64,000 nt of DNA, taken from Sarcina sp. DSM 11001. Lineage in GTDB: Bacteria; Bacillota; Clostridia; Lachnospirales; Lachnospiraceae. The notes beneath the pieces were generated by a model. It was not told where the DNA came from, ran no database searches, and was given only the letters and a program-made list of their open reading frames with translations. Location: the NCBI RefSeq assembly GCF_900101015.1, contig NZ_FNFZ01000001.1, forward strand, positions 199,412 to 263,411. Reading direction: 5' to 3'. The position numbers and the translations under genes were made by a program. The first letter of the stretch is position 1; every line of letters starts with the position of its first letter. Shown here piece by piece: positions 4,002 to 63,176 of this stretch.

Positions 4002-4032
4002 CAAAAAATAAAAACGATTGAGAAGACGCTGA

Positions 4033-4157: not shown

Positions 4158-4190
4158 TGTATGATGAAATCGTAAAAAAGGAAGTGACAC

Positions 4191-6499: not shown

Positions 6500-6592
6500 A
6501 ACAGATATGCAACAGATAAATGTTACAATTCTTAAGACAGATATGTAACAGACAAGTGTGATAGTCCTTAAAAACAGACAGGTGTAATTATT
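6495..6592. repeat. 36-bp tandem repeat spanning the livG stop codon
   Basis: Units begin CTTAAAACAGATATGC at 6495-6530, CTTAAGACAGATATGT at 6531-6566, and a shortened copy at 6567-6592. The TAA of livG lies inside the first unit. Confidence 0.85.
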
Positions 6593-6641
6593 GGATCAGA
6601 GACAGGCGTACAATAATCCGCCTGAGGGGAAGGAGATTAAA

Positions 6642-7358: not shown

Positions 7359-7395
7359 TATTGTGTCATTGTCTTTGCGGAGGTCAATAAACACG

Positions 7396-7596
7396 ATGAA
7401 ACCACTTACTGAAATGAACAACCGGGAACTTTTTTCTGTCCTGACGGGATCGGATGTGATCAGCCAGGCCTTCCTGCAGAAAATCGTACGTCTCCATCTG
7501 CAGTATGTTCATGAGAATAATATCCATGAGGATGCTGACCTGAAGACCATGGTCAGGGAGTATACAGAAGGGCTCTATAAAGAAAAGCCTGAGTAA
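7396..7596 (+). CDS. Small protein of unknown function, last gene of the liv operon
   Basis: I do not recognise this 66-residue protein. It begins MKPLTEMNNRELFSVLTGSD and is soluble, helical-looking and ends in KEKPE. The ATG at 7396 is preceded by CGGAGG 12 bases upstream. It follows livF by 37 bp and precedes a terminator, so it is probably the last gene of the liv transcript. An upstream GTG at 7363 would add 11 residues but has no ribosome binding site. Confidence 0.6.
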   Translation: MKPLTEMNNRELFSVLTGSDVISQAFLQKIVRLHLQYVHENNIHEDADLKTMVREYTEGLYKEKPE

Positions 7597-7659
7597 ACAG
7601 GACAGAAGTTTTGAAAGAAATTTTTGAGAGAAGTTTTGAGAGAAGTTTTGAAAATAGAA

Positions 7660-7711
7660 GAGTCACCGGGGAGAATGCTGATCTTCCGCCGCTCCCCGGC
7701 GGCTCTTTTTT
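7660..7711 (+). terminator. Terminator of the liv operon
   Basis: GAGTCACCGGGGAG (7660-7673) pairs with 7692-7705 with one mismatch and one G-U, followed directly by TTTTTT. Confidence 0.9.
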
Positions 7712-7793
7712 ACTTGATTCATAAGGCTATATCTGAGATCCCGATGGTGTATTAGGAACCGCCGGGAGCGCCGCTCCACTATTGAACTTGTCC

Positions 7794-7822
7794 TTGACAT
7801 AGACACTTATTAAGATTAAAAT
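7794..7822 (+). promoter_or_regulatory. Promoter of rny
   Basis: TTGACA at 7794-7799 and TAAAAT at 7817-7822 are 17 bp apart, giving a leader of about 110 nt before rny. Confidence 0.8.
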
Positions 7823-7937
7823 CAAAATGTTGTGAGTTTGTTCGTAGAATTGACGGTTTCCTGCTGTTTTCTGGGATGCAGGTCTGGATATTCTATACAA
7901 ATACAAACAGGTCAATTGAATAAGGAGGTGCTCCTGT

Positions 7938-9491
7938 ATGCCGTTTATGGGAATCATAGTTGCAGTGATTCTCACACTGGCTGCAGCAGTTCCCATCACC
8001 TGGTACGTCACTTCCGAAAACCACAGGAAGCAGGACGAGATCAAGGTGGACAGTGCGGATGCCCGGGCAAGGTCGATCATTGATGAAGCCCTTCGGGAAG
8101 CCGAATCCAAAAAGCGTGAGGCCATGCTGGAGATCAGGGAAGAGACGTTCAAATCAAAGAACGAGCTTGAAAAAGAGATCCAGAACAGGCGCAACGAAGT
8201 GCAGAAAAACGAGCGCAGGATTCAGCAGAAGGAAGAGCAGATCGACAACAAGGTCGAGCAGCTTGAGCGCAGGGAACAGAGTCTGGCAGCAAAGGAAGAG
8301 AACCTGCAGAAGCTTCAGAAAGAAGTTTCACAGTTAAACGAGCAGCGCATACAGGAACTCGAACGAATTTCAGGTCTGACCTCTGAACAGGCGAAAGAAC
8401 ACCTTTTAAAAATTGTTGAAGATGAAGTGAAGCTGGATTCTGCCAGAATGATCAAGGAGATCGAGGCAGAAGCCAAAGAGGAAGCCGAGAAACGCGCCAA
8501 GGAATATGTGGTCAGTGCCATACAGCGCTGTGCCGCGGACCATGTGTCCGAGGCGACGATCTCTGTCGTACAGCTGCCCGGCGATGAAATGAAGGGCAGG
8601 ATCATCGGCCGCGAGGGGCGCAATATCCGCACTCTCGAGACCATGACAGGTGTCGATCTGATCATTGACGATACACCTGAGGCGGTAGTCATCTCCGCAT
8701 TTGATCCGATCCGACGTGAAGTGGCGCGCGTAGCGCTGGAAAAACTGATCGTCGACGGGCGGATCCATCCCGCCAGGATCGAGGAGATGGTCACCAAGGC
8801 ACAGCGGGAAGTGGAAGCCAGGATCAAGGAGGAGGGCGAAGCAGCCACTCTGGAAGTCGGCGTCCACAGCATCCATCCGGAGCTGGTGAGGCTCCTGGGC
8901 AAGATGCGTTTCCGCACCAGCTATGGGCAGAATGCTCTCAAGCATTCTATTGAAGTGGCTCAGCTTTCAGGACTGCTGGCCAGCGAGCTGGGACTGGATG
9001 TCCGTCTCGCAAAGCGCGCAGGCCTGCTGCATGACATCGGCAAGGCTGTAGACCATGAGATGGAGGGGTCTCATGTACAGCTGGGCGCTGAACTCTGCAG
9101 AAAGTATAAAGAATCTCAGACAGTGATCAATTCCGTGGAAGCACACCACGGGGATGTTGAACCCGCCAGCCTGATCGCGTGCATCGTACAGGCAGCGGAT
9201 ACGATCTCCGCAGCCCGTCCGGGCGCCAGGAGAGAGACTCTTGAAGCCTACACTTTGAGGCTCAAACAGTTAGAAGAAATCACCAACAGTTTTAAAGGGG
9301 TAAGTAATTCATATGCCATTCAGGCAGGAAGAGAAGTTCGTGTCATGGTAGTTCCTGAGCAGATCAGTGATGCTGATATGGTGCTGCTGGCAAGAGATAT
9401 TTCCAAAAAGATCGAAGCAGATATGGAATATCCCGGACAGATCAAGGTCAATGTGATCCGTGAGTCCAGAGTTACGGATTACGCGAAATAA
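7938..9491 (+). CDS. rny: Ribonuclease Y
   Basis: RNase Y is the membrane-anchored endoribonuclease that starts bulk mRNA decay in Firmicutes. The order of parts is standard: one membrane segment (about residues 4-22), a long charged coiled coil to about residue 200, a KH RNA-binding domain with [13 protein letters not shown], and an HD phosphohydrolase domain with [12 protein letters not shown] carrying the metal-binding His-Asp. It has 517 residues, the usual length. AAGGAGG lies 9 bases before ATG 7938. In many Clostridia rny follows recX directly; here the liv operon lies between them. Confidence 0.97.
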
Positions 9492-9513
9492 ATAATATCG
9501 AAATAAATAATAC
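9484..9513. repeat. 15-bp direct repeat spanning the rny stop codon
   Basis: CGAAATAAATAATAT at 9484-9498 is followed by the near-identical CGAAATAAATAATAC at 9499-9513. The rny TAA is in the first copy. Confidence 0.75.
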
Positions 9514-9557
9514 CAGGATACTTCAGGATTATTATTTTATTTAAACTGTAAACAATA

Positions 9558-9606
9558 AGGAACTGCAGATGCCCGACAGGATTCTGCAGTTCCTCTTTCA
9601 TTTTTT
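9558..9606 (+). terminator. Terminator of rny
   Basis: A perfect 12-bp stem (AGGAACTGCAGA at 9558-9569 with 9583-9594) is followed by CTTTCATTTTTT. Confidence 0.88.
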
Positions 9607-9624
9607 CCTGACATCTGTGCAATG

Positions 9625-9686
9625 CCGGCAATTCTTTCCTGGTATGTGTCCAAGACCGGCAATTCTCTCCTGGTATCTGTCCAAAA
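9625..9686. repeat. 31-bp tandem repeat after the rny terminator
   Basis: Two 31-bp units start CCGGCAATTC at 9625 and 9656. A partial unit precedes them and another partial unit (CCGGCACTT) follows. With the terminator this fills most of the roughly 335-bp gap between rny and the next gene. Confidence 0.85.
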
Positions 9687-9827
9687 CCGGCACTTATTAT
9701 TTTTTTCTCTGTGCAAAATTTTTTCTCTGTGCAAATAGCTTTCATTTACCCGGTACCTGTGTCGTACTGACTGTCATTTTCGGTGAATGAATGTATATAT
9801 TATTCGCACAACTCCGAGGGTGTGGAT

Positions 9828-10376
9828 ATGAACAAGACAGAACAGCTGCTGACGCAGGAAGAGATCAGGCGAATCCTGGATCTGCCCGATGCCGGTACCT
9901 GCGCGGGAAGGCGGGACAGGGCCCTTCTGAGCCTTTTGTGCGATGCCGGCCTCAAGACGCAGGAATTGCTGGACCTGAGGCTGGAGAACCTTGACCTGCA
10001 GATATCCTGTGTGCTGCTTCCCGGGCAAAAAAGCGGGGAGAAAGTCCGTATGGTCCCTTTCGGTGAGAGAACGCGTTCAGCCCTGGTTGATTATCTCTAT
10101 GATATCCGAGGAAGGGCTGAGGGTCCTTTGACCAGGGTGTTCACGGGAAGGAACAACGGGGTGCTCTCCAGGCAGGCTGTTTGGAAGCTGGTCAGAAAAT
10201 ATGGAAAGGCCGCAGGCGTCGGGGAAGGGCTTTCTCCGGAAAATCTTCGCTCTTCATTTGCGGTCAGCCTCCTTGTGAGAGGCGCGGAGCCCGCCAGTGT
10301 ATCCCGGATGCTGGGAATTGGGACTGCCGCGGTGAAAAAATATGTTTTACTGGCAAAAAAAGCGAAAAATCCCTGA
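9828..10376 (+). CDS. Tyrosine-recombinase-like protein, catalytic fold only, active site degenerate
   Basis: The protein (182 residues from ATG 9828) matches only the C-terminal catalytic domain of XerC/XerD-type recombinases and has no core-binding domain. Compared with XerD, the first catalytic Arg is Lys (AGLKTQELL), the HxxR motif reads ENLR with Arg kept and His lost, the following His is Ser, and the last His/Trp position is Ile (MLGIGTAA). The β-hairpin Lys (GQKSGEK) and the Tyr (VKKYVLL) remain. Strand cleavage is therefore doubtful; a DNA-binding or regulatory role, or decay, is more likely. No att-like repeats flank it. An in-frame ATG at 9783 is possible. Confidence 0.8.
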   Translation: MNKTEQLLTQEEIRRILDLPDAGTCAGRRDRALLSLLCDAGLKTQELLDLRLENLDLQISCVLLPGQKSGEKVRMVPFGERTRSALVDYLYDIRGRAEGPLTRVFTGRNNGVLSRQAVWKLVRKYGKAAGVGEGLSPENLRSSFAVSLLVRGAEPASVSRMLGIGTAAVKKYVLLAKKAKNP

Positions 10377-10391
10377 TTTTTGAAAAAATCT

Positions 10392-10422
10392 TTGAGCATA
10401 TTGACTCCAAATAAGGTATAAT
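10392..10422 (+). promoter_or_regulatory. Possible glgA promoter
   Basis: A consensus TATAAT lies at 10417-10422, about 120 bp before glgA. The best -35 is weak and at long spacing (TTGAGC at 10392, 19 bp); a TTGACT at 10401 is too close. Confidence 0.4.
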
Positions 10423-10540
10423 GGATTAGGAATGTTTCATTTGCCAGTTCCGGTTGTGAGAGACTGCTGTTACTGCCGGTGCAAAAATGGCATAGTTTAT
10501 AGCATATCATTTCAGTACAGTAACAGGGGGTCATTGACTT

Positions 10541-11989
10541 ATGAAAAAAATTCTTTTTGTGGCATCAGAAGGCGTTCCTTTTATCAAGACAGGAGGTCTG
10601 GCAGATGTTGTCGGATCCCTTCCCAAGGAACTGGATAAAGAATATTATGATGTCAGAGTGATCATGCCCAAGTATTCCTGCATGAAGCAGGATATGAAAG
10701 ACAAGATGGAGTATGTCACTCACTTCTATATGGATTTCCACTGGAAGAGTGAGTATGTCGGAGTTCTCCAGGCCGAGGTCGATGGGATCAAGTTTTACTT
10801 CGTCGACAATGAGGGCTTCTTTACCAGCGACAAGCCCTATACCGATGATCCCATGTTTGAGATCACCCGGTTTGCATTCTTCTCCAAAGCTGTCCTGTCT
10901 GTGCTCCCTGCCATCGATTTCCACCCCGACCTGATCCACTGCCACGACTGGCAGACCGGTCTGGTGCCCGTCTATCTCAAAGAGCGGTTTGCGGGCGGCG
11001 AGTTCTTCCAGGGGATCAAGACTGTCATGACGATCCACAATCTGAAGTTCCAGGGCAAATGGAATGTCAGGGATGTCGAGGATATCACAGGTCTTTCCGG
11101 TTATTATTTCACACCGGACAAGCTGGAAGCCTATAAGGACGCGAACCTCCTCAAGGGCGGTCTTGTCTATGCGGACGCGATCACGACCGTTTCTCCGACC
11201 TATGCCGAGGAAATCAAGACGCAGTTCTACGGCGAAGGTCTCGACGGTCTGATGAATGCCAGGAGCCATGACCTGCGAGGCATTATCAACGGCATTGATT
11301 ACACCGACTTTTCACCGGACAATGACAAGAAGATCCCCCAGCCCTACACGGTGGACAATTTCCGCAAGTTGAAGGTCAAAAATAAACTTGCCCTTCAGAA
11401 GGAACTGGGCCTGAAGGTCGATGAGAAGTGCTTCATGATCGGTATTGTCTCCAGGCTGACTGACCAGAAAGGCTTTGACCTGATCGCCTATGTCCTCGAG
11501 GAGATCCTTTCCCTTGACGCGATCCAGATGGTCGTTCTGGGAACAGGTGAAGAGCGCTATGAGAATATGTTCCGCTACTTCGACTGGAAGTACAACGACA
11601 AGATCTCCGCGAATATCTACTATTCGGATGAGCTCTCTCACAAGATTTATGCTTCCTCCGATGCTTTCCTGATGCCTTCCCTGTTTGAGCCCTGCGGACT
11701 GAGCCAGCTCATGTCCCTGCGCTACGGCACTCTTCCGATCGTCCGCGAGACCGGCGGCCTCAAGGATACGGTCGAGCCTTACAATGAATTTGAGGGCACC
11801 GGGACAGGCTTTACCTTCGCGAACTACAATGCTCACGAGATGATGCACTCGATCCGTTACGCTGAGCAGGTCTACTATGACAAGCGCCTCGAGTGGAACA
11901 AGATGGTTGAGCGCGCCATGCGCGCGGACTTCTCCTGGGCACAGTCCGCAGCCAAGTATCAGGAGATGTACGACTGGCTCATCGGCTGA
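10541..11989 (+). CDS. glgA: Glycogen synthase
   Basis: GlgA extends α-1,4-glucan chains from ADP-glucose in the cytoplasm. The N-terminal GT5 signature is present (KTGGLADV at residues 16-23), as are FHPDLIHCHDWQTGL, the TIHNLKFQG segment and the GT-B C-terminal nucleotide site (SLFEPCGLSQL, preceded by IYASSDAFLMPS). Its 482 residues match the family. The gene is followed by a 65-bp duplication and a nested terminator. No other glg gene is in the window. Confidence 0.97.
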   Translation: MKKILFVASEGVPFIKTGGLADVVGSLPKELDKEYYDVRVIMPKYSCMKQDMKDKMEYVTHFYMDFHWKSEYVGVLQAEVDGIKFYFVDNEGFFTSDKPYTDDPMFEITRFAFFSKAVLSVLPAIDFHPDLIHCHDWQTGLVPVYLKERFAGGEFFQGIKTVMTIHNLKFQGKWNVRDVEDITGLSGYYFTPDKLEAYKDANLLKGGLVYADAITTVSPTYAEEIKTQFYGEGLDGLMNARSHDLRGIINGIDYTDFSPDNDKKIPQPYTVDNFRKLKVKNKLALQKELGLKVDEKCFMIGIVSRLTDQKGFDLIAYVLEEILSLDAIQMVVLGTGEERYENMFRYFDWKYNDKISANIYYSDELSHKIYASSDAFLMPSLFEPCGLSQLMSLRYGTLPIVRETGGLKDTVEPYNEFEGTGTGFTFANYNAHEMMHSIRYAEQVYYDKRLEWNKMVERAMRADFSWAQSAAKYQEMYDWLIG

Positions 11990-12086
11990 GTGACAGCCTG
12001 ACCGGTTTGAAGGTATTCCTAAGCTGTTTCTGTTTCTTCGAAATCAGCGGCTGGGTGACTGCCCGATCAGTTTGAAGGCCGATGAA
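11983..12086. repeat. 65-bp-spaced repeat spanning the glgA stop codon
   Basis: The segment starting CGGCTGAGTGAC at 11983, which contains the glgA stop, reappears as CGGCTGGGTGAC at 12048. Similarity continues through the AGTTTGAAGG-type region (about 30 bp). Confidence 0.65.
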
Positions 12087-12394
12087 AGCCGATGATCCAA
12101 TCAGTCCGGAGGGCCGGAGTTTTTCTGGATGTACTTCCGGGGTGAACCGCTTTCCTGGAATAGCTTGAGGCTCCGGGAGCCGGATAGTATTCCGGATGAT
12201 GGATAATAATACCGGTAATAAGGATAATAAAAGGATAGTAATAAAAAGAGATGACTGTGCAGATCCTGCACAGGCTGCCGCGGCAGGATAGCGATTGTCC
12301 TGCCGCGATTTTCTTGCACAGGATCTGCCGGGGGGGTTACGCCCTGATCTCTGCGATAATCGTCAGCTCAAAGTAAAATCCGCAGGCTGCTTAC
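12087..12394. other. Intergenic region between glgA and the flippase gene
   Basis: Besides the terminator at 12259-12328 it holds a run of imperfect GGATAATAA-type repeats at about 12196-12245. I see no gene and no clear promoter for the downstream flippase. Confidence 0.5.
12259..12328 (+). terminator. Nested double-stem terminator after glgA
   Basis: The inner stem CGCGGCAGGA (12279-12288) pairs with 12298-12307 and is followed by ATTTTCTT. The outer arms GCAGATCCTG (12259-12268) and 12319-12328 also pair perfectly and enclose the whole, including the T-rich stretch. This is an unusual nesting that could let two alternative structures form. Confidence 0.75.
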
Positions 12395-12464
12395 AGACTG
12401 CACAACAGATCACGCAGCGGATGACGCAAAGACTGCACAACAGGTCATGCAGCGGATGACGCAG
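12395..12464. repeat. 35-bp direct repeat upstream of the flippase gene
   Basis: Two 35-bp units, AGACTGCACAACAG..., lie head to tail at 12395-12429 and 12430-12464 with three differences. Confidence 0.85.
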
Positions 12465-12505
12465 GCAGATCAATCACAGACTGTTTTATAGAAAGAACCC
12501 GGGAA

Positions 12506-14185
12506 ATGAACGATCAGAAAAAGATAAAAAAGAACAGTGAGGCTCCTGTTTCGGGAGGGAGTATTGCGGTGCAGGCGGGAGTCCTGGCGATCGCGACGAT
12601 CGTGGTCCGTATCATCGGGCTTCTCTACAGGGCGCCCCTGACGGCGATCATCGGAGATGAGGGCAACGGCTATTACGGCGCGGCCTATAATATTTATACG
12701 ATCATCCTGATCCTTTCCTCCTATTCGCTGCCGGCGGCTATTTCCCGGCAGATGTCCACCAAGATCGCTGTCGGGCAGTACAGGAATGCGCAGCGCGCTT
12801 TTCACTGCGCGCTTATATACTCTCTGATCGTAGGGGCTATGGGGAGCCTGCTCCTGTACTTTGGAGCTGGAGTCCTGGTAAAACACAATGCGGTTCCCGT
12901 TCTGCGGGTTTTTGCGCCGACGATCTTTCTGTTCGGGATCCTGGGCGCGGTGCGAGGGTATTTCCAGGCGAATCAGTCGATGGTCCAGACCTCGGTCTCC
13001 CAGATCCTGGAGCAGGTTGCCAATGCGGGCATCAGTATCGGAGCCGCCATCCTTCTGATCAGGTCTGCTCCTGCGCTGGCCACTGAGACGGAGCGGGCTG
13101 TGCGGGGAGCCATGGGAAGCGCCATGGGAACCGGGAGCGGTGTCATCACAGCTCTGATCTTTATGACGGCCGCCTATCTCCGCTACCGGAAGGGGTTTAT
13201 CCGGAGGATCGGGACGGACAAAGGGCCAGTGGAATCCTACGGAGCGATCATGAAGAGCACTATCCTCGTGATCACTCCCTTTGTCGTGAGCAATTTTATC
13301 CTGAATCTGACGACGACACTGGACCAGATGATCTACCTCAATATGCTGATCGACGGGAGAAAGCTGTCGGAGGCCGCGGTGACGACTGTCTTCGGTCTTT
13401 TTTCCAATAAAGCCGTTGTCATCATCAACATTCCGGTCTCAGTCGCCACAGCCGTCTCGGCGGCGATCATACCGAATATCGCCACAGCCCATGCCTCCGG
13501 TGATCTCAAAGAGACCCGCAGGCGGTCTGTCAATGCAGCGCGCATGGCTTTGGTGATTGCCGTTCCCTGTGCCGTCGGCCTGACGGTGCTGGCAAGGCCC
13601 GTTACGATGCTGATGTTCCCTCAGTGGGAGACGCTGGAGCTTGCCTCCGTTCTTCTGGCCCTGCAGGCTGTGACGGTCATCTTTTTATCCGTTGGTACGA
13701 TCACAAACGCCGTCCTGCAGGCCATTGGAAAAATGAACATGCCCATCGTCAGCGCGGGCGCGGCCCTCATTATCCAGACAGCGGTCCTCGCCTGGTTTCT
13801 GCGATTCACGGACTGGGGGATCTACGCGATGGTCTTTGTCAGCGTCCTGTACGCAGCGATCATCTTTGCTCTGAACGAGCTCTTCCTGAGGCACTATCTC
13901 GGTCTGAGGATCGATCCGGTCCAGGTCTATCTCAAACCGATCCTGAGCGCGGCTGTCATGGGAGCGGCTGCATTTGGAGTCTACCGGGGGATCTTCAAGC
14001 TGGTTTCCGGGTTCGGAGGAGAATACTTCTCCAATTTTGCGGCTGTCCTCCCGGCGATCTTAGTCGCCATTCCGGTCTATTTCTTCGTATTGATAAAGAC
14101 CGGAGGATTTACCCGGGAAGACATCCTGGGGCTTCCTAAAGGAGACTCGCTGGCGCGGCTTCTGAAAAAGCTGCACTGGCTGTAG
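12506..14185 (+). CDS. MurJ/SpoVB-family lipid flippase (polysaccharide biosynthesis protein)
   Basis: This is a MOP-superfamily membrane protein of 559 residues with about 14 hydrophobic segments. The start of the transmembrane part (GSIAVQAGVLAIATIVVRIIGLLYRAPL) and GNGYYGAAYNIYTIILILSSYSLP match the SpoVB/YtgP branch, which includes lipid II flippases and sporulation-cortex flippases. The expected role is flipping a lipid-linked cell-wall or polysaccharide precursor across the membrane; which one cannot be decided from sequence. It stands alone between glgA and the convergent rqcH. Confidence 0.88.
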   Translation: MNDQKKIKKNSEAPVSGGSIAVQAGVLAIATIVVRIIGLLYRAPLTAIIGDEGNGYYGAAYNIYTIILILSSYSLPAAISRQMSTKIAVGQYRNAQRAFHCALIYSLIVGAMGSLLLYFGAGVLVKHNAVPVLRVFAPTIFLFGILGAVRGYFQANQSMVQTSVSQILEQVANAGISIGAAILLIRSAPALATETERAVRGAMGSAMGTGSGVITALIFMTAAYLRYRKGFIRRIGTDKGPVESYGAIMKSTILVITPFVVSNFILNLTTTLDQMIYLNMLIDGRKLSEAAVTTVFGLFSNKAVVIINIPVSVATAVSAAIIPNIATAHASGDLKETRRRSVNAARMALVIAVPCAVGLTVLARPVTMLMFPQWETLELASVLLALQAVTVIFLSVGTITNAVLQAIGKMNMPIVSAGAALIIQTAVLAWFLRFTDWGIYAMVFVSVLYAAIIFALNELFLRHYLGLRIDPVQVYLKPILSAAVMGAAAFGVYRGIFKLVSGFGGEYFSNFAAVLPAILVAIPVYFFVLIKTGGFTREDILGLPKGDSLARLLKKLHWL

Positions 14186-28889: not shown

Positions 28890-30467
28890 TTACTTGACAA
28901 ACCGCTCTATTTTGCAGGTGTGCGTCTTTTTGCTTTCATCATAGTTGATCCCGACGAACAACAGGCGGCCCTGGTAGTGAGAGAGGGAGTCAAAATACTG
29001 CCTGTCCCGGATTTGGCGGATCGCGCTGTCTGTAGAGCCGTTGCGCTTCAGCTCAATAATCATAGCGGGATCGGATTCCCGGAAAGGAATGAACACTACA
29101 TCTGCGAATCCTTTCCCCGCTGTCATTTCCCTGATTACCGTATAGCGGTTCAGGGCATAAATGAAAGCCAGGTAGATGGCGCTCTGCAGGGCGTCTTCAT
29201 TGTTGTAGCTGCGGTTGCTGGTGACATGGATATGGGAGATGTCCAGGGCTTTAGCGACGGCGTCCGCATTTCCCTGGAGAGTTTCGGCGAGCAGTTCCTT
29301 TGAGGACTGGATGATTTGTGAGGTGACGGCGTATTCTTCAGGAATCTTGTTCAGGGCGCGGAACCATTCTTCACGAACCTCTTTGTTGGGGATGCGGCAG
29401 GTGTTCTCGTCCTGGTTATACGCGAGATAGCCCAGATGGATCAGGTAACAGAATACGTCGTCCCTGCTGGTGAAATCCGTCATGGTATTCAGGTAGGAAT
29501 AGACATCCACATCTGCTTCTTCGCCTGCGAGCATCCGGATCACGGCGTCTTTCGTTCCGGCGAAGTTCTGTCTGATCCGGTCAGAGATGGCGGTGTAGGA
29601 GGAGGTCTGCCCCCAGTAGCTGCCAAAACGCCTGTCTTCTATGCATCGGACCACCGATTCCGGATTATAGATTTCATAGCCGTTCTGACGATATCCGTCA
29701 TACCAGCGGCGGCACTCTTCGTAATTGACCCCGCCTTTTTCGCACTCTGCCCGGACCTCCTGTGACGTGAATCCGACAAACTCCGCCAGTGGGCCTGCGT
29801 TCAGGATCGTATATTCGCGGAAGTTGTTGAGCTTTGACTGGATCTTGTCCCGGACGACCGGCAGGATTCCGGTCAGGTAAGCGAGGGAAATCGCCGGACG
29901 CAAGGTGTCGCTCTTAAACAATCCGTTGAGAAAGGAAAGGTATGCGTCGAACAGTTCCGGGCTGGCCTGTTCCCGCACCAGCACGTCATATTCATCGATG
30001 AGGATGATGAAGGTCTCGCCGGTGGAAGCATAAATCCGAAGGATGCACTGTGCCAGCGAATCGTCCTCTTCAAAAGCAATGTCAGGAAAAGAAGCCTTCA
30101 TTTCTTTTTTTATTTCTCTTGTCAGTCGAAGAAGCATGCGACTCTTGTTGAGAGTATTCTGGTATTCGCTGTTCATGTCGATCTTGATGACATTATATTG
30201 ATTCAGCTTGTCTCTGTATCCGCCAGCGGACGCGATTTTAAAGCGCGCAAACAGATCCGAAGAATCACAGCCCTTCGAATAATAGGCGCTGAGCATATTG
30301 CCGGCAAGGGTCTTTCCGAAACGGCGCGGACGGGAAATGCAGATATAATTGTTTCCTTTATCGATAAAACGGTTTGTCGCCTCAATCAGCATTGTTTTAT
30401 CGACATAGACATCTGCTATGGATGCGCGTCTGAAATTTTCATTTCCCGGATTTAAGTAGATTCCCAC
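28890..30467 (-). CDS. AAA-ATPase-like protein with C-terminal PD-(D/E)XK nuclease domain
   Basis: This is a member of the large gut-bacterial family of AAA-ATPase_like plus PDDEXK_9 proteins (DUF1703). The N-terminal ATPase has a modified Walker A (SRPRRFGKT, residues 45-53) and Walker B LILIDEYD near 155-161. The C-terminal third has a nuclease-like pattern, FADVVFIP then AMIIELKRNG (about 445-475). It has 525 residues, normal and intact. The GTG start at 30467 follows TAGGAG by 9 bases. Function is unproven; these genes occur in many copies and are thought to be mobile or to act on foreign DNA. It stands alone here. Confidence 0.88.
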   Translation of the reverse strand: MGIYLNPGNENFRRASIADVYVDKTMLIEATNRFIDKGNNYICISRPRRFGKTLAGNMLSAYYSKGCDSSDLFARFKIASAGGYRDKLNQYNVIKIDMNSEYQNTLNKSRMLLRLTREIKKEMKASFPDIAFEEDDSLAQCILRIYASTGETFIILIDEYDVLVREQASPELFDAYLSFLNGLFKSDTLRPAISLAYLTGILPVVRDKIQSKLNNFREYTILNAGPLAEFVGFTSQEVRAECEKGGVNYEECRRWYDGYRQNGYEIYNPESVVRCIEDRRFGSYWGQTSSYTAISDRIRQNFAGTKDAVIRMLAGEEADVDVYSYLNTMTDFTSRDDVFCYLIHLGYLAYNQDENTCRIPNKEVREEWFRALNKIPEEYAVTSQIIQSSKELLAETLQGNADAVAKALDISHIHVTSNRSYNNEDALQSAIYLAFIYALNRYTVIREMTAGKGFADVVFIPFRESDPAMIIELKRNGSTDSAIRQIRDRQYFDSLSHYQGRLLFVGINYDESKKTHTCKIERFVK

Positions 30468-55119: not shown

Positions 55120-55923
55120 TCAGCTTTTTACAAAATAATGACGTCCCAGCCATCTGGAAAGGCCGTCAAGCCCGGGATAAACAATGCGCTCCGTTATATT
55201 GTGGTGGTCGAGCATATCGCGGATCCGCCATCGGAGCTTTTTGTCAATGATATAGCGGGCTGTGAGGTTTGTGTGCCTGTTCAGAAACTCTGTCACATTT
55301 TCCATCTTCCCCGGTACCACAGAAAAAAATGAATACTGGTTAATGATCCTGGGATCGAATGAGGGCGGTTCAATGACAGCCATGCAGCGGTCCTGCATAT
55401 CTTCGTCATACTGGTGCAGACTGCTGCAGGCTTCGTTGAGCATGTCGACAGAGAAGACTGTCGTGTTGTATTTGCGGATGATCCTCCGGTATTTGAGCGG
55501 CAGCATGGCATGCAGCTCATGAATGTCGATGCGCCAGACGACAGAATCGTGGGCATCCATCATCTCAAGGTCATTTTCTGTCATCGCAAAATGCAGAGCC
55601 ACCATGGGAGAGAAGGTCCAGTCCAGAAGGCGGGTGGGCAGTCCGTGATGCTGCCCCAGGATCATCTGGTTCCAGATCGACTTCTCGATCGTCGGCTCCT
55701 CCAGTACAGCGTACTTGGTAAAATTGAGCAGCATGGTGGGCTCAAGCAGTGTCCTCTTATCTTTGCAGTTCCGCTTCAGGCTCGTAGAGAGCGTAAAAGA
55801 AGCATCCGGTTCGCCGCGGTAGACGAACAGGTCCCTGTTGCGGCCCAGATCTTCCCGGTATTCCTGCTCCGAAACCATACGGAAAAGATCATCCATAGTA
55901 TGGATCTCAATATCATGAATCAT
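55120..55923 (-). CDS. FRG-domain protein
   Basis: The FRG domain (named for conserved Phe, Arg, Gly residues) is of unknown biochemical function and is often carried by accessory or mobile regions. Motifs seen are LFVYRGEPDASFTLSTSLKR near residue 30, GQHHGLPTRLLDWTFSPMVALHFA near 88-110, and NQYSFFSVVPG near 205. It has 267 residues from the ATG at 55923, which follows GGAGGT by 6 bases; the frame runs 10 codons further upstream without a ribosome binding site. It follows the ATPase gene by 72 bp and is probably its operon partner. Confidence 0.88.
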   Translation of the reverse strand: MIHDIEIHTMDDLFRMVSEQEYREDLGRNRDLFVYRGEPDASFTLSTSLKRNCKDKRTLLEPTMLLNFTKYAVLEEPTIEKSIWNQMILGQHHGLPTRLLDWTFSPMVALHFAMTENDLEMMDAHDSVVWRIDIHELHAMLPLKYRRIIRKYNTTVFSVDMLNEACSSLHQYDEDMQDRCMAVIEPPSFDPRIINQYSFFSVVPGKMENVTEFLNRHTNLTARYIIDKKLRWRIRDMLDHHNITERIVYPGLDGLSRWLGRHYFVKS

Positions 55924-55995
55924 AAGGTTACCTCCGCCGGAAACACATAACATAGTTTAACATGGAAGAGAGCATAGCGCCATGCCGCTGTCGGC

Positions 55996-57045
55996 TCATG
56001 CATACAGTTCCTTCTTCTGGATGAATCTTTCAAAGCCGGGAAGAGCAAGACGGAGCTGTCCATATAGACGCCCGTCCACGACCCCTTTGTGCACCAGCCG
56101 GTCCCGATAGACGCCATATGCGTTTTTTGTTATCCCGGTGGCATCCCTGATCTTCATGCTGCGGGCATACTGGCTGCCTGCCTTTTTTACAATTGTATGC
56201 AGGATCAGCCTCTCCTTTTCTGTCAGCCCGTACCAGATTTTGTCATACACATAATCGGCGAGATAATGGTCAAATTCCGGGAGCAGATTCTTTATTTCAG
56301 CGGGTTTTCGTTCCCACTTCAGATATCCGAGGACCTGATAGGCAAATGCGTAACCTCCGGTGAGTTTTGCCATCTCAACGGAGACAGAAGGCTCCTGATC
56401 AAATACAGCCGAATAGCTTTCTGCAATCATGTCAAAACTGAGAGGCTCCAGAAAAACTTTTGGTGCTCTGTACAGGAAGGTCAGAGATTTCTCATTTTGC
56501 AGTTCATACAGATTCTCATATAACCCCGTCATCAGAAGAAAAATATCATAATCCTGGCGAAGATATATCTGAAAAGCATGCGCAAACTCCCGGATATAAG
56601 GATTGTTCACCGCTTCATCCACAGCAAGCAGGAGATGTTTGTGGTGTTTTTTCAGCACTTTCAGCATTCTTTCCACAATAACTTCATAATCATCCACCGG
56701 TGTGTTGTCGATAGTAAATCCAAAGCCCATGCTGGAGACACTGATACCCGCATTGGAAAAAAGGTGTTTCAATGTATCTAAGTTATACAGCTTGGAGGCG
56801 AGGCTCTTTAAAACATCCTTTTCCGGGTTCAGTTCCAGGACTGTCCAGTCTTTTCTGTTTCGGAGAACATTGCAGATTTCCGTCATCATGACAGTTTTTC
56901 CGGATCCACGTACCCCTGTGATCATGAAGGTATGTGTCGGAGCCTGATCAGACGTGAAAGCATCGATAATTTCGTTAGTCTGCGCAGGCCTGGAGATCAG
57001 TTTTTGCGGCAGCATTCCAAAAGAGATCGTAAAAGGGTTGTTCAT
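55996..57045 (-). CDS. P-loop (STAND-like) ATPase with C-terminal winged helix
   Basis: This 349-residue protein resembles the archaeal-type ATPases common in gut Clostridia. Walker A is GVRGSGKT at 44-51, Walker B LLLAVDEA at 138-145, and a sensor-like FLLMTGLYENL follows. The end (LTEKERLILHTIVKKAG...AYGVYRDRLVHKGVVDGR) reads as a winged-helix DNA-binding domain. GGGAGGCG precedes the ATG. A strong promoter lies upstream. Such proteins can act as regulators or as NTPase cores of defence systems; the FRG neighbour makes the second reading attractive but unproven. Confidence 0.85.
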   Translation of the reverse strand: MNNPFTISFGMLPQKLISRPAQTNEIIDAFTSDQAPTHTFMITGVRGSGKTVMMTEICNVLRNRKDWTVLELNPEKDVLKSLASKLYNLDTLKHLFSNAGISVSSMGFGFTIDNTPVDDYEVIVERMLKVLKKHHKHLLLAVDEAVNNPYIREFAHAFQIYLRQDYDIFLLMTGLYENLYELQNEKSLTFLYRAPKVFLEPLSFDMIAESYSAVFDQEPSVSVEMAKLTGGYAFAYQVLGYLKWERKPAEIKNLLPEFDHYLADYVYDKIWYGLTEKERLILHTIVKKAGSQYARSMKIRDATGITKNAYGVYRDRLVHKGVVDGRLYGQLRLALPGFERFIQKKELYA

Positions 57046-57648: not shown

Positions 57649-59217
57649 ATGAAGAACAAGAAGTTGTACGCCTGGCAGAAGGAATGCCTTGCTGCATGGG
57701 AGGGAAACCGGTTTCGGGGGATCATCAATGTAGTGACCGGAGCCGGTAAGACATATCTGGCTCTTGCGGCGATCGATCGGGCAAGGGACTTGTTTCCTGA
57801 CCTCATGGTCAGGATCGTGGTGCCCACGATCCCGCTCGCTCATCAGTGGGAGACGGCGCTTCTGCATCAGGCCGGTTCGGAAAAATGGAGGCCGGGGTTT
57901 TTCGGCGGCGGAAAAAGGGACGATCCAGAGCGGCGGGTGATGATCTATATCATCAATTCGGCCAGGGATACGCTTGCGGGGCACATCCGCAGGGACCTGG
58001 CTCTGCAAAGGCATGTCTTTTTGATCTGTGATGAATGCCACCATTATACCAGTAAAGAAAACCGGAAGATTTTTGGATTTGTGGAAGACCTGAATGAATC
58101 CTCAGACAGGCTGGAATCCCTGTATCTGTGCCTGGGACTGTCGGCGACGCCGTTCGGGACTTCCAATGACGAGGTTCTGCTCAGATCTCTGGGAAAGGAA
58201 ATTTATGAGTACGGCTTTGACGCCGCTGTAAAAGAAGGAATCATTTCTCCCTTTACAGTATGCGAGGTGTCAGCCTCTTTTTTTGCAGATGAGAGGCAGG
58301 AATATGCCGACCTCACCTACAGGATAGGGAGAACGCTCGTGCAGCTTCTCAGGGAACATCCGGAGCTGAAAAAGCTGAGGGAGCGAAGAGAGAAATCCTT
58401 CATCAGGGCTGTGATGCGTATCGCCAGGGAGGCGGACATGGATCCCGAGGAGACAGCCTGCGCCTATCTGATGCTGACCTGGCAGAGAAAGGAGATCAGC
58501 ACCCTGGCCAGGGCCAGGATCTCCTGCTGTCTCTCTATTTTGAGTCAGCTGAGGCGGGATGACCGGGTCCTGATCTTCTGCGAGAGGATCACCCAGGCTG
58601 AGGAGATGGTCGGACAGATCCGGAGGGCTTTTGGCAATGTATGCGGGATCTATCATTCGCAGATGACAAAGGAAGCGCGGGCACGGGTCCTGTCGGAATT
58701 CCGGAACCAGTCTTTCCGGATCCTGGTGAGCTGCAGGGCCCTGGATGAGGGAATTGATGTTCCGGATGCCAATATAGGGATCGTTTTAAGTTCAACAGCT
58801 GTGGAGCGCCAGCGTGTGCAGCGGTTGGGACGCGTGATACGACGGGCGCAGGGCAAGGCGGCAGCCTGCCTTTATTATATTTACATACGGGAATCGACAG
58901 ACGACGCCGCATTTCTTCCCGGACTGGAGGAATGTGATTCTTTCAGTCTGCGGTATTATACGGCTGAAGATGTTTTCGCCAACGATCTGTATGAATACGT
59001 CGGCGGCAGCCTGGTGCGGTCGGCGAGGGAGCGGGGATACGATACCGCGCAGCTCGAGGAGGTGCGAAGATGCCTCACTGAGGGCCTGGCCCGGGCGGAT
59101 TACCTGCTGCCTGCAAAGGTACAGGCGGAGAGAGCGCGGTCGTCAGAGGAGAGACACGACCGCAACTATTGGAGCGCCATGAAGCGCGTCGGGGATGCCT
59201 TCCGAGGCCGGAAATAA
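57649..59217 (+). CDS. SF2 DEAD/DEAH-type helicase
   Basis: This is a superfamily 2 helicase of 522 residues with both RecA-like lobes. Visible motifs: a Q-type start YAWQKECLAAW (7-17), Walker A VTGAGKT (29-35), DECH (128-131), motif III SATPFG (165-170), CRALDEGIDVPDANIG (motif V region, about 362-377) and motif VI QRLGRVIRR (391-399). It resembles restriction-type and XPB-like helicases rather than RNA helicases. A helical insertion lies between the lobes (about 225-290). GGGAG lies 4 bases before ATG 57649. It is the first gene of a four-gene operon with two P-loop ATPases. Confidence 0.92.
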   Translation: MKNKKLYAWQKECLAAWEGNRFRGIINVVTGAGKTYLALAAIDRARDLFPDLMVRIVVPTIPLAHQWETALLHQAGSEKWRPGFFGGGKRDDPERRVMIYIINSARDTLAGHIRRDLALQRHVFLICDECHHYTSKENRKIFGFVEDLNESSDRLESLYLCLGLSATPFGTSNDEVLLRSLGKEIYEYGFDAAVKEGIISPFTVCEVSASFFADERQEYADLTYRIGRTLVQLLREHPELKKLRERREKSFIRAVMRIAREADMDPEETACAYLMLTWQRKEISTLARARISCCLSILSQLRRDDRVLIFCERITQAEEMVGQIRRAFGNVCGIYHSQMTKEARARVLSEFRNQSFRILVSCRALDEGIDVPDANIGIVLSSTAVERQRVQRLGRVIRRAQGKAAACLYYIYIRESTDDAAFLPGLEECDSFSLRYYTAEDVFANDLYEYVGGSLVRSARERGYDTAQLEEVRRCLTEGLARADYLLPAKVQAERARSSEERHDRNYWSAMKRVGDAFRGRK

Positions 59218-59325
59218 GTCCGGAAAAAGGTATACGGATCAAAACACAGGCACAACAAGAAACGATCAGCAAACTATCAGAAAACGATCAGCAGACGATC
59301 GGCATATGAGAGGAGACAAACTGTC

Positions 59326-60117
59326 ATGCAGAATTATGAGGAACTCTACGGGGCGCTCCAGCCTCTGGAAAAGGCGCTGAAGGATTCGGCGGCGGCTGTC
59401 ACAAAGCAGCAGAAAGCGATCCAGAAGAATACAGAGACCGGCAACCTGGCGGAAGTGAAAAAAAGTCTTGAAGCCATCGCGGAAGCAGCGAAGACTTTGC
59501 AGGAGGGCATTGATGCCGTCCGGAGCGAAATAGATTCTTTTGACACAAGGGCATATTTTGCCGACGGAGATTTTACAAAGCAGCTTCTGGAGGCCTGTGC
59601 GGAAAAGGGTGTCGATGTGCGCGGCGAGACGGGCGTCTATGAGATGTTCCCCTTCAAGGTCAGGATCATCGGCGATGAGGAACACGACAGTGAGATCTGG
59701 ATCAACCGCAAAAAGCTGCCCAGCTTCCGGCCTTCTTTTGTGGCGGAATCCATTCACGCTGACCAGGCCAGGCTCTATAACGCCAAATTCAATGAACAGA
59801 CCTTTATGACAGAGCTGGCGGATGCCTATGAGCTGGCCTGCCTGAAGTCAAATGCCCGGACCGGCAGTACGCAGAGTCTGGATAAAATATATAAATTCCT
59901 TGCCCCTACTGCCCGTGCGAGAAAGGATTATGACAAGCAGGCCTATGCCTTTGACCTTGCAAGGCTCTACGAAAAAGGGACGGATGCCTGGGTTTCCAGA
60001 ACCGGCAGAAAATATTATTTCGGAACGAGCCGGGACGGGAAGAGCGGTATCCGGGTCCTGAGCAGTTCCGGTGTGGAATCTTTCATTAACACATTAAAGA
60101 TGATTAAAGAAGACTGA
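59326..60117 (+). CDS. Coiled-coil protein of unknown function in the helicase-ATPase operon
   Basis: I do not recognise this 263-residue protein. Residues about 5-75 are a predicted coiled coil (LEKALKDSAAAVTKQQKAIQ). The rest looks like a compact α/β domain containing EMFPFKVRIIGDEEHDSEIW and ending in RTGRKYYFGTSRDGKSGIRVLSSSG. There are no membrane segments and no obvious catalytic motif. AGGAGA precedes the ATG; the helicase ends 108 bp upstream and the next gene starts 14 bp downstream, so it is surely part of the operon. An adaptor or sensor role for the ATPases is a guess from position. Confidence 0.75.
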   Translation: MQNYEELYGALQPLEKALKDSAAAVTKQQKAIQKNTETGNLAEVKKSLEAIAEAAKTLQEGIDAVRSEIDSFDTRAYFADGDFTKQLLEACAEKGVDVRGETGVYEMFPFKVRIIGDEEHDSEIWINRKKLPSFRPSFVAESIHADQARLYNAKFNEQTFMTELADAYELACLKSNARTGSTQSLDKIYKFLAPTARARKDYDKQAYAFDLARLYEKGTDAWVSRTGRKYYFGTSRDGKSGIRVLSSSGVESFINTLKMIKED

Positions 60118-60131
60118 AAGGGGACGATCTC

Positions 60132-61358
60132 ATGACGGAGCAAATGGCGGGCGGCAGCATTGCGCTTGAACGGCTGGAAAAAGGGATGCCCCCGGGACGG
60201 GGCGCCCTTCTGGAAAAAATGACGGCCGGTCTGGATCCGCTGACAGCTTTTCTGTGTGACCAGTATCTGGAAAATTATATAAGCCGGGGCGGGAGCAAAA
60301 TGAAGTTCGTCACCGGACGGAGCGGGAGCGGTAAGACCCATTTTTCCATGCGTATGCTGGATGAAGCTGCGGCCAGGGGATTCCTGACGGTTTCCTTTTC
60401 CGCGAAAGATGTCTGGCTCCATGATTTCAGGGAAATCTACCTGGAGATCCTCCGGCAGTGCGATATCGAACATATCCTGCAGGGCTGTGCGGACCAGATC
60501 GTGCGGGAACTGGGCTATGACCCGGCGCAGATCGGCCCGGGGAAGAGCTTCATGGATCATCTCTCTGAGAAGGGAGAGGCAGATCCGATCTCCCGGGGAG
60601 AGATCCGCAGTGCTCTGCGGTCATATTTCACCAAAAACCCTCTGCTGGACAACAACTTTGCCTGCTGCTGTTCGATTCTGACCGGCGGGATCCTGGGGCA
60701 CCCTGTCCTGGAGCCGGCCAGCCGGGAGCTGGTCCTGTCTTTTTTATACGGAGACAAGTCTGTCAAGCTCGGGCAGCTCCGCACGCTGGGGCTGTCTCCT
60801 TCCAGAGTCACAAAAATCAATGCCCGCCATCTGCTGCGTTCTCTGGCCGAGGTCGTGCATCGGGCGGGATACAGGGGGCTGATCGTCTGTATCGACGATC
60901 TTGAGATGGTCATGAACCGGGCGGCAGGCAGTGCCATGCGCTACACGAAGCTTCGCCGCAACGATGCTTTCGAGAGCATCCGGCAGCTGATCGATGATAT
61001 CGACAACATGCGCTACATTATGTTCCTGTTCGGATTCGAGCGCGGCCTCATGGACAATGAAAACACCGGATTCAAGACTTATCAGGCTCTCTGGATGAGG
61101 ATCCAGAACGAAGTGGTGAGCACGCGGTTTAACCGGTTTGCGGATATCATTGACCTGGACCGCTACGCGGAGGAATTCTACACGGAGGATGTCCTGATCG
61201 AGATGTCCGGAAAGATCGCACAGGTCCTGTCTGACTATGGCAGGCCGGCAAAAATACTGGATAAGGAAAAAGCCGGCGGGCTTTTGGAACGATCAAAGTT
61301 CGGCGGGATCGGGCTTCCTTATCTGGTGGTGCGCGAAGTGCTGTCTGAAGATAATTGA
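60132..61358 (+). CDS. BREX-type (DUF2791-like) P-loop ATPase I
   Basis: The 408-residue protein has Walker A GRSGSGKT (62-69) and Walker B LIVCIDDLE (250-258), with a helical insertion between them. The layout and the N-terminal LEKMTAGLDP-type helix match ATPases annotated as BREX ATP-binding domain (DUF2791). The C-terminal part has FNRFADIIDLDRYAEEFYTED, probably a lid or helical domain. AAAGGGGA precedes the ATG. It is a diverged partner of the ATPase encoded downstream. No PglZ, methyltransferase or BrxA/B gene is nearby. Confidence 0.8.
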   Translation: MTEQMAGGSIALERLEKGMPPGRGALLEKMTAGLDPLTAFLCDQYLENYISRGGSKMKFVTGRSGSGKTHFSMRMLDEAAARGFLTVSFSAKDVWLHDFREIYLEILRQCDIEHILQGCADQIVRELGYDPAQIGPGKSFMDHLSEKGEADPISRGEIRSALRSYFTKNPLLDNNFACCCSILTGGILGHPVLEPASRELVLSFLYGDKSVKLGQLRTLGLSPSRVTKINARHLLRSLAEVVHRAGYRGLIVCIDDLEMVMNRAAGSAMRYTKLRRNDAFESIRQLIDDIDNMRYIMFLFGFERGLMDNENTGFKTYQALWMRIQNEVVSTRFNRFADIIDLDRYAEEFYTEDVLIEMSGKIAQVLSDYGRPAKILDKEKAGGLLERSKFGGIGLPYLVVREVLSEDN

Positions 61359-61456
61359 TGACTGACCGCCCGTTGACCAGCCTCGGCAGTTTTTGAGTGT
61401 CAAAGAGGTAAAAACTGTCGATATCAGCTGAGTCTGCGGAAAGAGGAGGGCTGTAA

Positions 61457-62701
61457 ATGATACAAGAGCAATCTGGACGCGAGCATGGGGAGACTGACTT
61501 CAATGCGCGTCATGTGATTGAAGCGCTGCGCAGCGGAGTGCCGTCCCGCGCGGTCGGCGAGTATTTTTCGGAGGCGCGGCCGGCAATGCTCCGCAGGGTG
61601 CAGGACCGGCTGGAGTCCGTGCGCGAGACGGGACGTTCCGGAGGCATGGTGTTTACCGGACGTTACGGAGAGGGAAAGACACACCTGCTCAATACCGTGT
61701 TCAGCATGGCGTTCGCGGAAAACATGGCGGTATCCTGCGTTTCTCTGGGCAAGGAGACCCCTGTCGACAAGCTTCATCAGCTGTACCCTAAGATCATTGC
61801 CAACACTTATCTGCCGGGTGCTGCCCAGCCGGGCTTCCGCAGGAAGCTGGAGGATCTGACACAGGGAAGCAATGTTTCCGGTGAACTTCTGGCCTATGCG
61901 GCAAAGGAGATGGAAACGGACAAACTCTATTTTCTCCTGCGCGCCTTTTTGGGAACACAGGAGGAAGAGGAGCGGTACGCCTTCCTCGCCGACCTCGAGG
62001 GTGACTTTACGACAGGTCCGCTGATCAAACGGAGCTACAGGAGGATCACAGGATCTGTAGCAAAATTTAATCAGAATTTCAGCAAGACAAAACATGTTTT
62101 TGATTATTTCTGCTTTATCAGCCATCTGTTCAAACAGCTCGGCTACAATGGATGGGTGCTGCTGTTTGACGAAGCGGAACTCATCGGGGGCATGGGCAAG
62201 AAGGCCCGCGCAAAAAGCTACGTAGAGATGCAGCGCTTTTTGAAGCCTTCTCCGAAGCTTGAAGGGGTGTTTTCCCTGTTTGCCTTCAGCTCTTCCTATG
62301 TGGAAGATGTGATCGATAAAAAGAAAGAATTTGAGAATGTGCGTGAAGTATTCGCCGAAGACGGCGATGCTCTCTCAGCGGCGGAAGCCTCGCTCAGAGC
62401 GATCGAAAACGCCCCTGAGCTAGCGCCTCTGACGAAGGAGGAGATCACCCGGATCCTCATGAGCATCCAGGATTTCCACGGAAAGGCATATGGCTGGCAC
62501 CCGGACGTCTCCGCCGAGTCCATCTATGCAGCGACCGAAGCCGGAGGCTACCTGCTCCGGACCAAGATCCGCGCCGCTATCGAATTTTTTGACCAGCTCT
62601 ACCAGTACGGCGAAGCCGGTAAGACCAGAATCACGGAACTTGGCAAAGAGACCTTTGAGGAAGACGATACACCGGAACTGCCGGATCTGGACGAGTTGTG
62701 A
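61457..62701 (+). CDS. BREX-type (DUF2791-like) P-loop ATPase II
   Basis: The 414-residue protein begins with the diagnostic ARHVIEALRSGVPSRAV helix, followed by Walker A GRYGEGKT (68-75) and Walker B WVLLFDEAEL (233-242). LFAFSSSYVEDVIDKKK follows as a sensor-like strand, and the C-terminal helical region ends in an acidic tail (EEDDTPELPDLDEL). This is the closer match of the two to DUF2791/BrxD-type ATPases. AAAGAGGAGG precedes ATG 61457; the gap to the first ATPase is 98 bp. Two unequal ATPases in tandem suggest a hetero-oligomeric ring. Confidence 0.83.
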   Translation: MIQEQSGREHGETDFNARHVIEALRSGVPSRAVGEYFSEARPAMLRRVQDRLESVRETGRSGGMVFTGRYGEGKTHLLNTVFSMAFAENMAVSCVSLGKETPVDKLHQLYPKIIANTYLPGAAQPGFRRKLEDLTQGSNVSGELLAYAAKEMETDKLYFLLRAFLGTQEEEERYAFLADLEGDFTTGPLIKRSYRRITGSVAKFNQNFSKTKHVFDYFCFISHLFKQLGYNGWVLLFDEAELIGGMGKKARAKSYVEMQRFLKPSPKLEGVFSLFAFSSSYVEDVIDKKKEFENVREVFAEDGDALSAAEASLRAIENAPELAPLTKEEITRILMSIQDFHGKAYGWHPDVSAESIYAATEAGGYLLRTKIRAAIEFFDQLYQYGEAGKTRITELGKETFEEDDTPELPDLDEL

Positions 62702-62969: not shown

Positions 62970-63176
62970 ATGAGAGAGGGAATCCATCCCAAGTATTTCC
63001 AGGCAACTGTAACCTGCAACTGCGGCAATACCTTCGTGACCGGCTCCACTTCCAAGGAGATCCACGTCGAAGTTTGTTCCAAGTGCCATTCATTCTACAC
63101 CGGCACGCAGAAGACAGCGGCTGCCAAGGGTCGTATCGATAAGTTCAACAGGAAGTATGGCCTGGGCAACAACTAA
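62970..63176 (+). CDS. rpmE: 50S ribosomal protein L31, zinc-binding form
   Basis: L31 lies at the interface of the two ribosomal subunits. The 68 residues are an ordinary L31: [19 protein letters not shown] at the start, [13 protein letters not shown] and a basic [12 protein letters not shown] tail. Four Cys (CNC and CSKC) mark the zinc-dependent (C+) type. It has its own promoter, long leader and terminator. Confidence 0.97.

Follow-up and report, generated by a model that had tools for sequence, protein, structure and literature searches.

Organization of the Locus

The locus described here lies in a 64-kb window (contig NZ_FNFZ01000001.1, positions 199,412 to 263,411; G000:C32 in our numbering) of the 4.15-Mb assembly of Sarcina sp. 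DSM 11001. It consists of four genes between positions 57649 and 62701, all on the forward strand, which encode a superfamily 2 (SF2) helicase, a coiled-coil protein designated cc, and two P-loop ATPases, ATP1 and ATP2 (Table 1). The genes are separated by 108, 14 and 98 bases and the operon therefore is compact, without overlaps. A first-pass annotation of the DNA had proposed one tight operon of these four open reading frames with DUF2791-type ATPases and the two Walker A motifs listed in Table 1, all of which was borne out. Homologues of the encoded proteins were encountered repeatedly, with identities of about 35-90%. All 19 helicases compared, of 21, retain motifs I and II, and 18 of the 19 retain motif VI, the remaining protein having no residues there; the helicases of loci L043 and L070 were too short to include. 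Thus, the recurrence and the conserved motifs argue against chance open reading frame content, which was rejected as conservation spans wide divergence.

Table 1. Genes of the four-gene set and of its immediate surroundings (positions in the 64-kb window).
Feature	Positions	Strand	Residues	Characteristics
SF2 helicase	57649-59217	+	522	Pfam ResIII 1e-20, Helicase_C 6.8e-20
cc (coiled-coil protein)	59326-60117	+	263	no Pfam family at E 0.01
ATP1 ATPase	60132-61358	+	408	Walker A GRSGSGKT; Pfam BrxC_BrxD PF10923 1.5e-29
ATP2 ATPase	61457-62701	+	414	Walker A GRYGEGKT; Pfam BrxC_BrxD PF10923 4.1e-21
rpmE (L31), presumed from its sequence	62970-63176	+		right border of insertion
FRG-domain gene	55120-55953			PADLOC candidate PDC-S15, 4.8e-44
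AAA/nSTAND-like ATPase gene, between FRG and rpmE	55996-57045	-		nSTAND_NTPase5 30.2 bits, under cut-off 34

A Conserved Trio within the Four-Gene Set

The distribution of the set was traced with cc, which was detected in 6 of 99 relatives, in 18 of 398 genomes of the phylum (one weak) and, with a wider profile, in 7 of 391 genomes of the class (one weak), the window genome being counted each time. A search of genome contigs yielded cc at 10 loci, and 30 of 113 genomes from the class of genome G461 also were positive. From these 30 genomes, 20 were fetched and two (G461 and G419) were already included, whereas G971, G967, G970, G933, G940, G913, G142 and G917 were left out together with a second weak place in G937. 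A weak match without ATPases (L057 in G389) and a weak match in G636 were dropped before counting. Loci L010 and L002 are one contig and were counted once, and L008 and L009 are nearly identical. Overall, 57 loci were examined, the window included.

The genes follow the order cc-ATP1-ATP2 on one strand in 56 of the 57 loci, the exception being L112 which has cc alone. The conserved unit therefore is this trio and not the four-gene set. Distances among the three proteins are strongly correlated (r values of 0.973, 0.942 and 0.948 across 54 loci, with none of 999 permutations as high), a pattern which plain vertical descent also produces. The helicase found in the window accompanies 21 of the loci and in 16 of these is divergent from the trio on the opposite strand; a single direction for all four genes is confined to the window and to L008, L009, L010 and L018. 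Thus, the minimal four-gene system envisaged by the first-pass annotation recurs in Clostridia-like genomes, but the four-gene order in one direction is limited to the window and four relatives, and the motor differs by lineage. The genes were found together and outside any larger housekeeping cluster, and the second gene did not prove to be a known TerB or BREX (bacteriophage exclusion) component. The L018 cc gene (5323-6115) and the L017 ATP2 gene (9726-10861) each occupy two reading frames, which may mean that these copies are defective or wrongly assembled.

ATP1 and ATP2 Are Unequal

Although the first-pass annotation listed two P-loop ATPases, these are not equivalent. Walker B of window ATP1 ends in DD instead of DE, whereas that of window ATP2 is intact (FDE). 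Across the loci, ATP2 has DE in 54 of 54 proteins and the Walker A pattern G/A-x4-GK-S/T in 53 of 54, with L069 as the exception; the ATP2 sequences of L041 and L113 are too short for these counts. In contrast, the Walker B glutamate is missing from 55 of 56 ATP1 proteins, with DE in a single case, DD in 32, DN in 12 and other residue pairs in the remainder. Walker A also is lost in 12 of the 56 ATP1 proteins, comprising all six encoded in trios linked to CRISPR (clustered regularly interspaced short palindromic repeats) loci, five of six linked to SNF2 and that of L020. Among SngB and BrxD comparators, DE is present in 13 of 13. Both ATPases of each of the two plasmid sets described below also possess DE, which indicates that loss of the glutamate from ATP1 probably is derived.

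In phylogenetic trees, ATP1 (56 of 56; support 0.873), ATP2 (54 of 54; 0.999) and SngB/BrxD (13 of 13; 0.587) each constituted a clade. When the plasmid proteins were added, the ATP2 clade persisted (56 of 56); the plasmid ATP1 proteins, however, fell outside ATP1. Scores against the NCBIfam BrxD equivalog were 83.7 bits for ATP1 and 44.1 bits for ATP2, with a cut-off of 350. Judged by sequence, ATP1 and ATP2 appear to be separate paralogues of BrxD/SngB with ATP2 as the predicted hydrolyzing subunit. BrxD belongs to the ORC (origin recognition complex)-Cdc6 clade according to PMC12839542, and ATP1 and ATP2 fall among the AAA+ ATPases of the BrxC/BrxD family by virtue of their PF10923 matches.

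The Coiled-Coil Protein and the Helicase

The predicted structure of cc comprises a helical hairpin (residues 4-70), an alpha-beta domain (about 82-152) and a winged helix (about 155-263), the winged-helix-like C-terminal half being predicted with high confidence. The earlier view of the protein as a coiled coil outside known families holds in both respects, but is incomplete in light of this C-terminal half. The protein had also been suggested to be the specificity or effector part: the predicted winged helix makes an adaptor or specificity role the better guess than that of an effector. Window cc did not match TerB in Pfam at 0.01 or SngA in PADLOC at 0.1 and produced only a weak match with PbeC (0.0092). 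When 27 cc proteins were scanned against Pfam at E 1, TerB was not among the best 25 of 38 families, all of which were weak and each of which appeared in one or two members. Three 11-base direct repeats with a score exceeding that of 100 shuffles are located at 59260-59303 just 5′ of cc; they were not seen in 18 other helicase-cc intergenic regions of relatives.

Among PADLOC families, PbeA is the nearest to the window helicase (7.3e-63), with an alignment that covers only positions 250-630 of the 672 in PbeA. The protein attained 162 bits against TIGR04095 (cut-off 600) and 67.3 bits against XPB (cut-off 610), and SngC was not among the best 25 of its 53 PADLOC matches. The N-terminal part of PbeA is a PLD domain (PMC6459918), whereas no PLD family was detected in the window helicase with Pfam. 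The protein is predicted to be a PbeA/XPB-like core that lacks the PLD nuclease domain and that serves as the DNA motor of this lineage.

The Motor Beside the Trio Changes

Of 55 informative loci, 46 have a motor near the trio; the contigs of L052 and L113 are too short to judge. The identity of the motor varies (Table 2). Partner type changed at least six times on each ATPase tree, compared to about 25 times with shuffled labels.

Table 2. Partners of the trio at the informative loci.
Partner	Number of loci	Loci	Assignment
PbeA-like SF2 helicase	21	window, L008-L012, L015-L021, L040-L043, L069-L071, L094	
Superfamily 1 (SF1) Upf1-like helicase	13	L097-L107, L109, L111	L097, L111 by Pfam AAA_11/AAA_12; others by similarity to those two
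SNF2	6	L051, L054, L072, L073, L108, L110	Pfam; L110 by similarity
BrxL	1	L053	372.7 bits, above cut-off 329.3
cas genes	7	L044-L047, L095, L096, L112	Cas3 in L044, L046, L047, L096, L112
Helix-turn-helix protein, without motor	3	L048-L050	
No motor seen		L013, L014, L055, L056	

In the loci with cas genes, these genes share the strand of cc. PADLOC identified L044 as type I-D (Cas10d, Cas3d, Cas5d, Cas7d) and L046 as type I-B (Cas3b, Cas5b, Cas7b, Cas8b). L047 includes a Cas3 gene and L045 only Cas6, near a contig end; the assignment of L095, L096 and L112 is based on resemblance to the cas genes of L044-L047. A simple script counted 44 CRISPR repeats in L044 and 46 in L096, and located no array in the DNA available for the other five cas loci. 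The SNF2 locus L108 neighbors CRISPR-linked L096 on the tree and is situated on a short contig, so that cas genes may lie past the contig end.

Other genes adjoin the trio in individual relatives. RloB-like and AAA_21 genes are next to the helicase in L021 (16736-19001) as a possible second defence pair. In L048 (12828-19441), a DUF6079 protein and an N6/N4 DNA methylase are encoded near a trio that has the helix-turn-helix protein instead of a motor. The trio of L055 is followed at 3901-10509 by four genes, for proteins of 437, 545 and 643 residues and one that we take to be Hsp70-like from its start. A conserved protein of ~190 residues is encoded between ATP2 and SNF2 in L051 (12898-13479), L054 (12858-13418) and L110 (1866-2423), the L051 copy being without a Pfam family.

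The Trio on Plasmids Outside Bacillota

Four ATP2 queries were searched against 72,556 plasmid records. Two produced no match, one matched a single record and one matched five; a Rhodococcus record was left out of the trio count, and the trio is present in two records. No phage record matched ATP2. On a plasmid of Aulosira laxa (Cyanobacteriota), genes for BrxA, BrxC, PglX, PglZ, BrxD (2.1e-166) and BrxHI (6.5e-280) are followed by cc, ATP1 and ATP2, accompanied by a second, more distant BrxHI/SngC-like helicase. As this plasmid carries both the trio and BrxD/BrxHI, the trio is not simply BrxD renamed. A Desulfomonile tiedjei (Thermodesulfobacteriota) plasmid possesses cc, two ATPases and a BrxHI/SngC-like helicase; BREX genes are lacking from the part examined. 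The Aulosira and Desulfomonile cc proteins scored 38 and 48 bits against the cc profile, respectively, with profile alignment probabilities of 96.0 and 97.0%. Cc was not found beside the Deinococcus and Azospirillum plasmid matches; a second ATPase gene is located about 5 kb away on the Deinococcus plasmid.

Insertion at rpmE

In three genomes of the same genus (L182, L183, L184), rpmE adjoins the FRG-domain gene at a distance of ~420-500 bases, and neither the AAA/nSTAND-like ATPase gene nor a member of the four-gene set has a match in the gap. In the window this interval is occupied by the ATPase gene and the four genes, which thus constitute an insertion. One of the three genomes, G018, has the set on a different contig. 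The position of the FRG-domain gene next to rpmE in relatives that lack the set there indicates that it is not part of the system; in three further relatives (L185-L187), this gene and the set both are absent near rpmE. The AAA/nSTAND-like gene had no match in the rpmE regions of the six relatives, and no BLAST match at E 1e-4 in the first trio loci, to which that comparison was confined. This gene shares the insertion and is a candidate member of the system.

The 30 proteins from the larger open reading frames of the window, rather than from every frame, were scanned with Pfam and included no PglZ, PglX, BrxC, PglW, DNA methyltransferase, BrxA/B or TerB. The absence of methyltransferase, PglZ, BrxA/B and TerB noted by the first-pass annotation accordingly agrees with the scan. 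However, its statement that the window lacks a nuclease gene does not hold strictly, as a predicted AAA-ATPase with a PD-(D/E)XK nuclease domain (PF09820, PF08011) is encoded at 28890-30467, 27 kb from the set.

Comparison with Known Systems

The architecture resembles Shango and type 2 BREX, each of which pairs a helicase with a BrxD-like ATPase. Shango, an experimentally supported anti-phage system (PMC10250203), likewise combines an adaptor, a BrxD-family AAA+ ATPase and an SF2 helicase in one operon, but has a TerB protein in place of cc, a single ATPase where the set has two unequal paralogues, and another type of helicase. The window genome also harbors a complete Shango on another contig (L126, G000:C40:74000-93900, 7577-14161), with matches to SngA (9.3e-72), SngB (1.6e-186) and SngC (3e-283); in comparison, ATP1 and ATP2 match SngB weakly (3.5e-13 and 9.2e-12). 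A search for TerB_C was positive in 10 of 149 genomes, own genome counted, and each of the ten loci has, after TerB, one BrxD-like ATPase along with a large protein whose start resembles a helicase; the scan for Shango covered the window genome's locus, which it confirmed. Assignment of the set as plain Shango was rejected, as the set lacks TerB and the genome has a genuine Shango at another place.

In type 2 BREX, a BrxD-type ATPase adjoins the helicase BrxHI, a pair that has been suggested to act as a loader (PMC12839542). BREX differs in possessing BrxC, PglX and PglZ, and the Aulosira trio with its own helicase follows a BREX locus that already holds BrxD and BrxHI. BrxD exceeded the cut-off in 1 of 199 genomes, which is not the window genome. 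Membership in BREX was rejected in view of scores far under the cut-off and the lack of visible partners. PbeABCD shares with the set the PbeA-like helicase, but cc, ATP1 and ATP2 match none of PbeB, PbeC and PbeD aside from the weak resemblance of cc to PbeC. DndC was found in 2 of 26 trio genomes, above the cut-off in G898, which has an SF1-type set, and weakly in G332, and was not found in the window genome. Without PLD, PbeBCD or DndC, the set was rejected as a Pbe member. The absence of BREX, TerB and Pbe partners beside the set agrees with the original annotation.

Type I CRISPR-Cas systems (I-B, I-D) are linked to the set by seven related loci at which cc is encoded among cas genes, six of which have the whole trio; the window set differs as no adjoining cas genes were found, and as its ATP1 retains the Walker A motif that is lost from the CRISPR-linked forms. 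Ssp systems, in which SspB has a triple winged helix and is accompanied by an ORC/Cdc6 ATPase (PMC10853773), are similar by description, and not by sequence, in uniting an ATPase of this type with a winged-helix recognition subunit; Ssp differs as part of phosphorothioate modification. In the literature searched we found no description of the trio, nor of the unequal ATPase pair, the cc family, the motor exchange or the CRISPR linkage.

Interpretation and Alternatives

The trio probably forms the basis of an antiviral system in which an ORC/Cdc6-like ATPase platform recruits or loads a motor on invading DNA, a reading to which we assign a probability of roughly 0.58. Defence, raised earlier as a possibility, is the likeliest role judging from context. 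In the proposed mechanism, cc would be a DNA-binding adaptor that comprises the coiled-coil hairpin and the winged helix. ATP1 and ATP2 would assemble as an asymmetric ORC/Cdc6-like AAA+ complex in which ATP2 hydrolyzes ATP, and ATP1 mainly binds ATP or is a pseudo-ATPase in some lineages. The assembly may close on the DNA of an invader or on an intermediate of replication, and then recruit or load the DNA motor. In the window this motor would be the PbeA-like SF2 helicase without a nuclease domain, and the outcome would be remodelling or blocking of invader replication; as Pfam revealed no nuclease family in the four proteins, this outcome is likelier than cleavage. The same platform in other lineages may serve the SF1 Upf1-like helicase, SNF2, Cas3 in type I CRISPR, BrxL or a BrxHI-like helicase. 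As no modification gene was seen nearby, the system is more likely to recognize a structure of the DNA or its state of replication than a mark, and self-modification would not be needed.

Four alternatives were considered. The set might be a divergent Shango with the same mechanism, in which cc replaced SngA (TerB), SngB was duplicated into ATP1 and ATP2, and SngC was swapped for another helicase. The common layout of adaptor, BrxD-like ATPase and helicase, the SngB matches of both ATPases, the helicase related to SngC and BrxHI in the two plasmid trios, and the experimental support for Shango itself (PMC10250203) are consistent with this proposal. It nevertheless is unlikely, as ATP1 and ATP2 form their own clades apart from SngB/BrxD, TerB occurs with a single BrxD-like ATPase in 10 of 10 TerB_C loci and was not among the best 25 of 38 families for 27 cc proteins, and the genome has a separate complete Shango. 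The similarity of the helicase to PbeA and its TIGR04095 score, together with the reported frequency of solitary pbeAC genes (PMC6459918), would fit a restriction module of the PbeABCD type, gated by phosphorothioation, whose partners were lost. However, the PLD nuclease part is absent, the other three proteins have no credible Pbe counterpart and DndC is rare in trio genomes, which makes such a remnant very improbable.

ORC/Cdc6 proteins, a winged helix and a helicase are the make-up of initiators, and the set accordingly might replicate or partition an integrated mobile element, with ORC-like ATPases, adaptor and helicase acting together. The patchy distribution and inserted location, the two plasmid copies and the three 11-base direct repeats before cc point in the same direction. 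Against this, no integrase, relaxase or primase family was detected among neighbors scanned from 49854 on, trios of relatives are found amid cas genes or behind a BREX locus, phage matches are lacking and plasmid matches few, and the repeats are not seen in related intergenic regions, so that a maintenance function is distinctly improbable. SF1 Upf1-like and SNF2 helicases also act in DNA repair, and the SF2 helicase scores weakly against XPB, both of which are compatible with a repair or recombination module that has no defence role. The accessory distribution with an empty site, and the linkage in relatives with CRISPR, BREX, BrxL and RloB genes, leave very little probability for that proposal.

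Retention of the ATPases while the motor changes suggests that they assist motors in general rather than one enzyme. By extension of the antiviral reading, the trio may act in prokaryotic immunity as an ORC-like platform of general purpose that recruits motors of at least six kinds. ATP1 would then have decayed stepwise as the partner changed, from an active form to one without the catalytic glutamate and further to one without Walker A. This extension is tentative, with somewhat less than even chances of being correct. If true, Cas3 or the interference step of certain type I CRISPR systems would require a dedicated ATPase loader.

Known defence loci include BrxD, SngB and ATPases related to them, the role of which has yet to be settled. 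A conserved trio in which the ATPases stay and the motor changes is a natural experiment on this role, and the unequal pair, one member of which decays to a pseudo-ATPase, provides point mutants with clear predictions. The CRISPR-linked form raises the question of whether type I interference in the bacteria concerned needs an extra AAA+ module.

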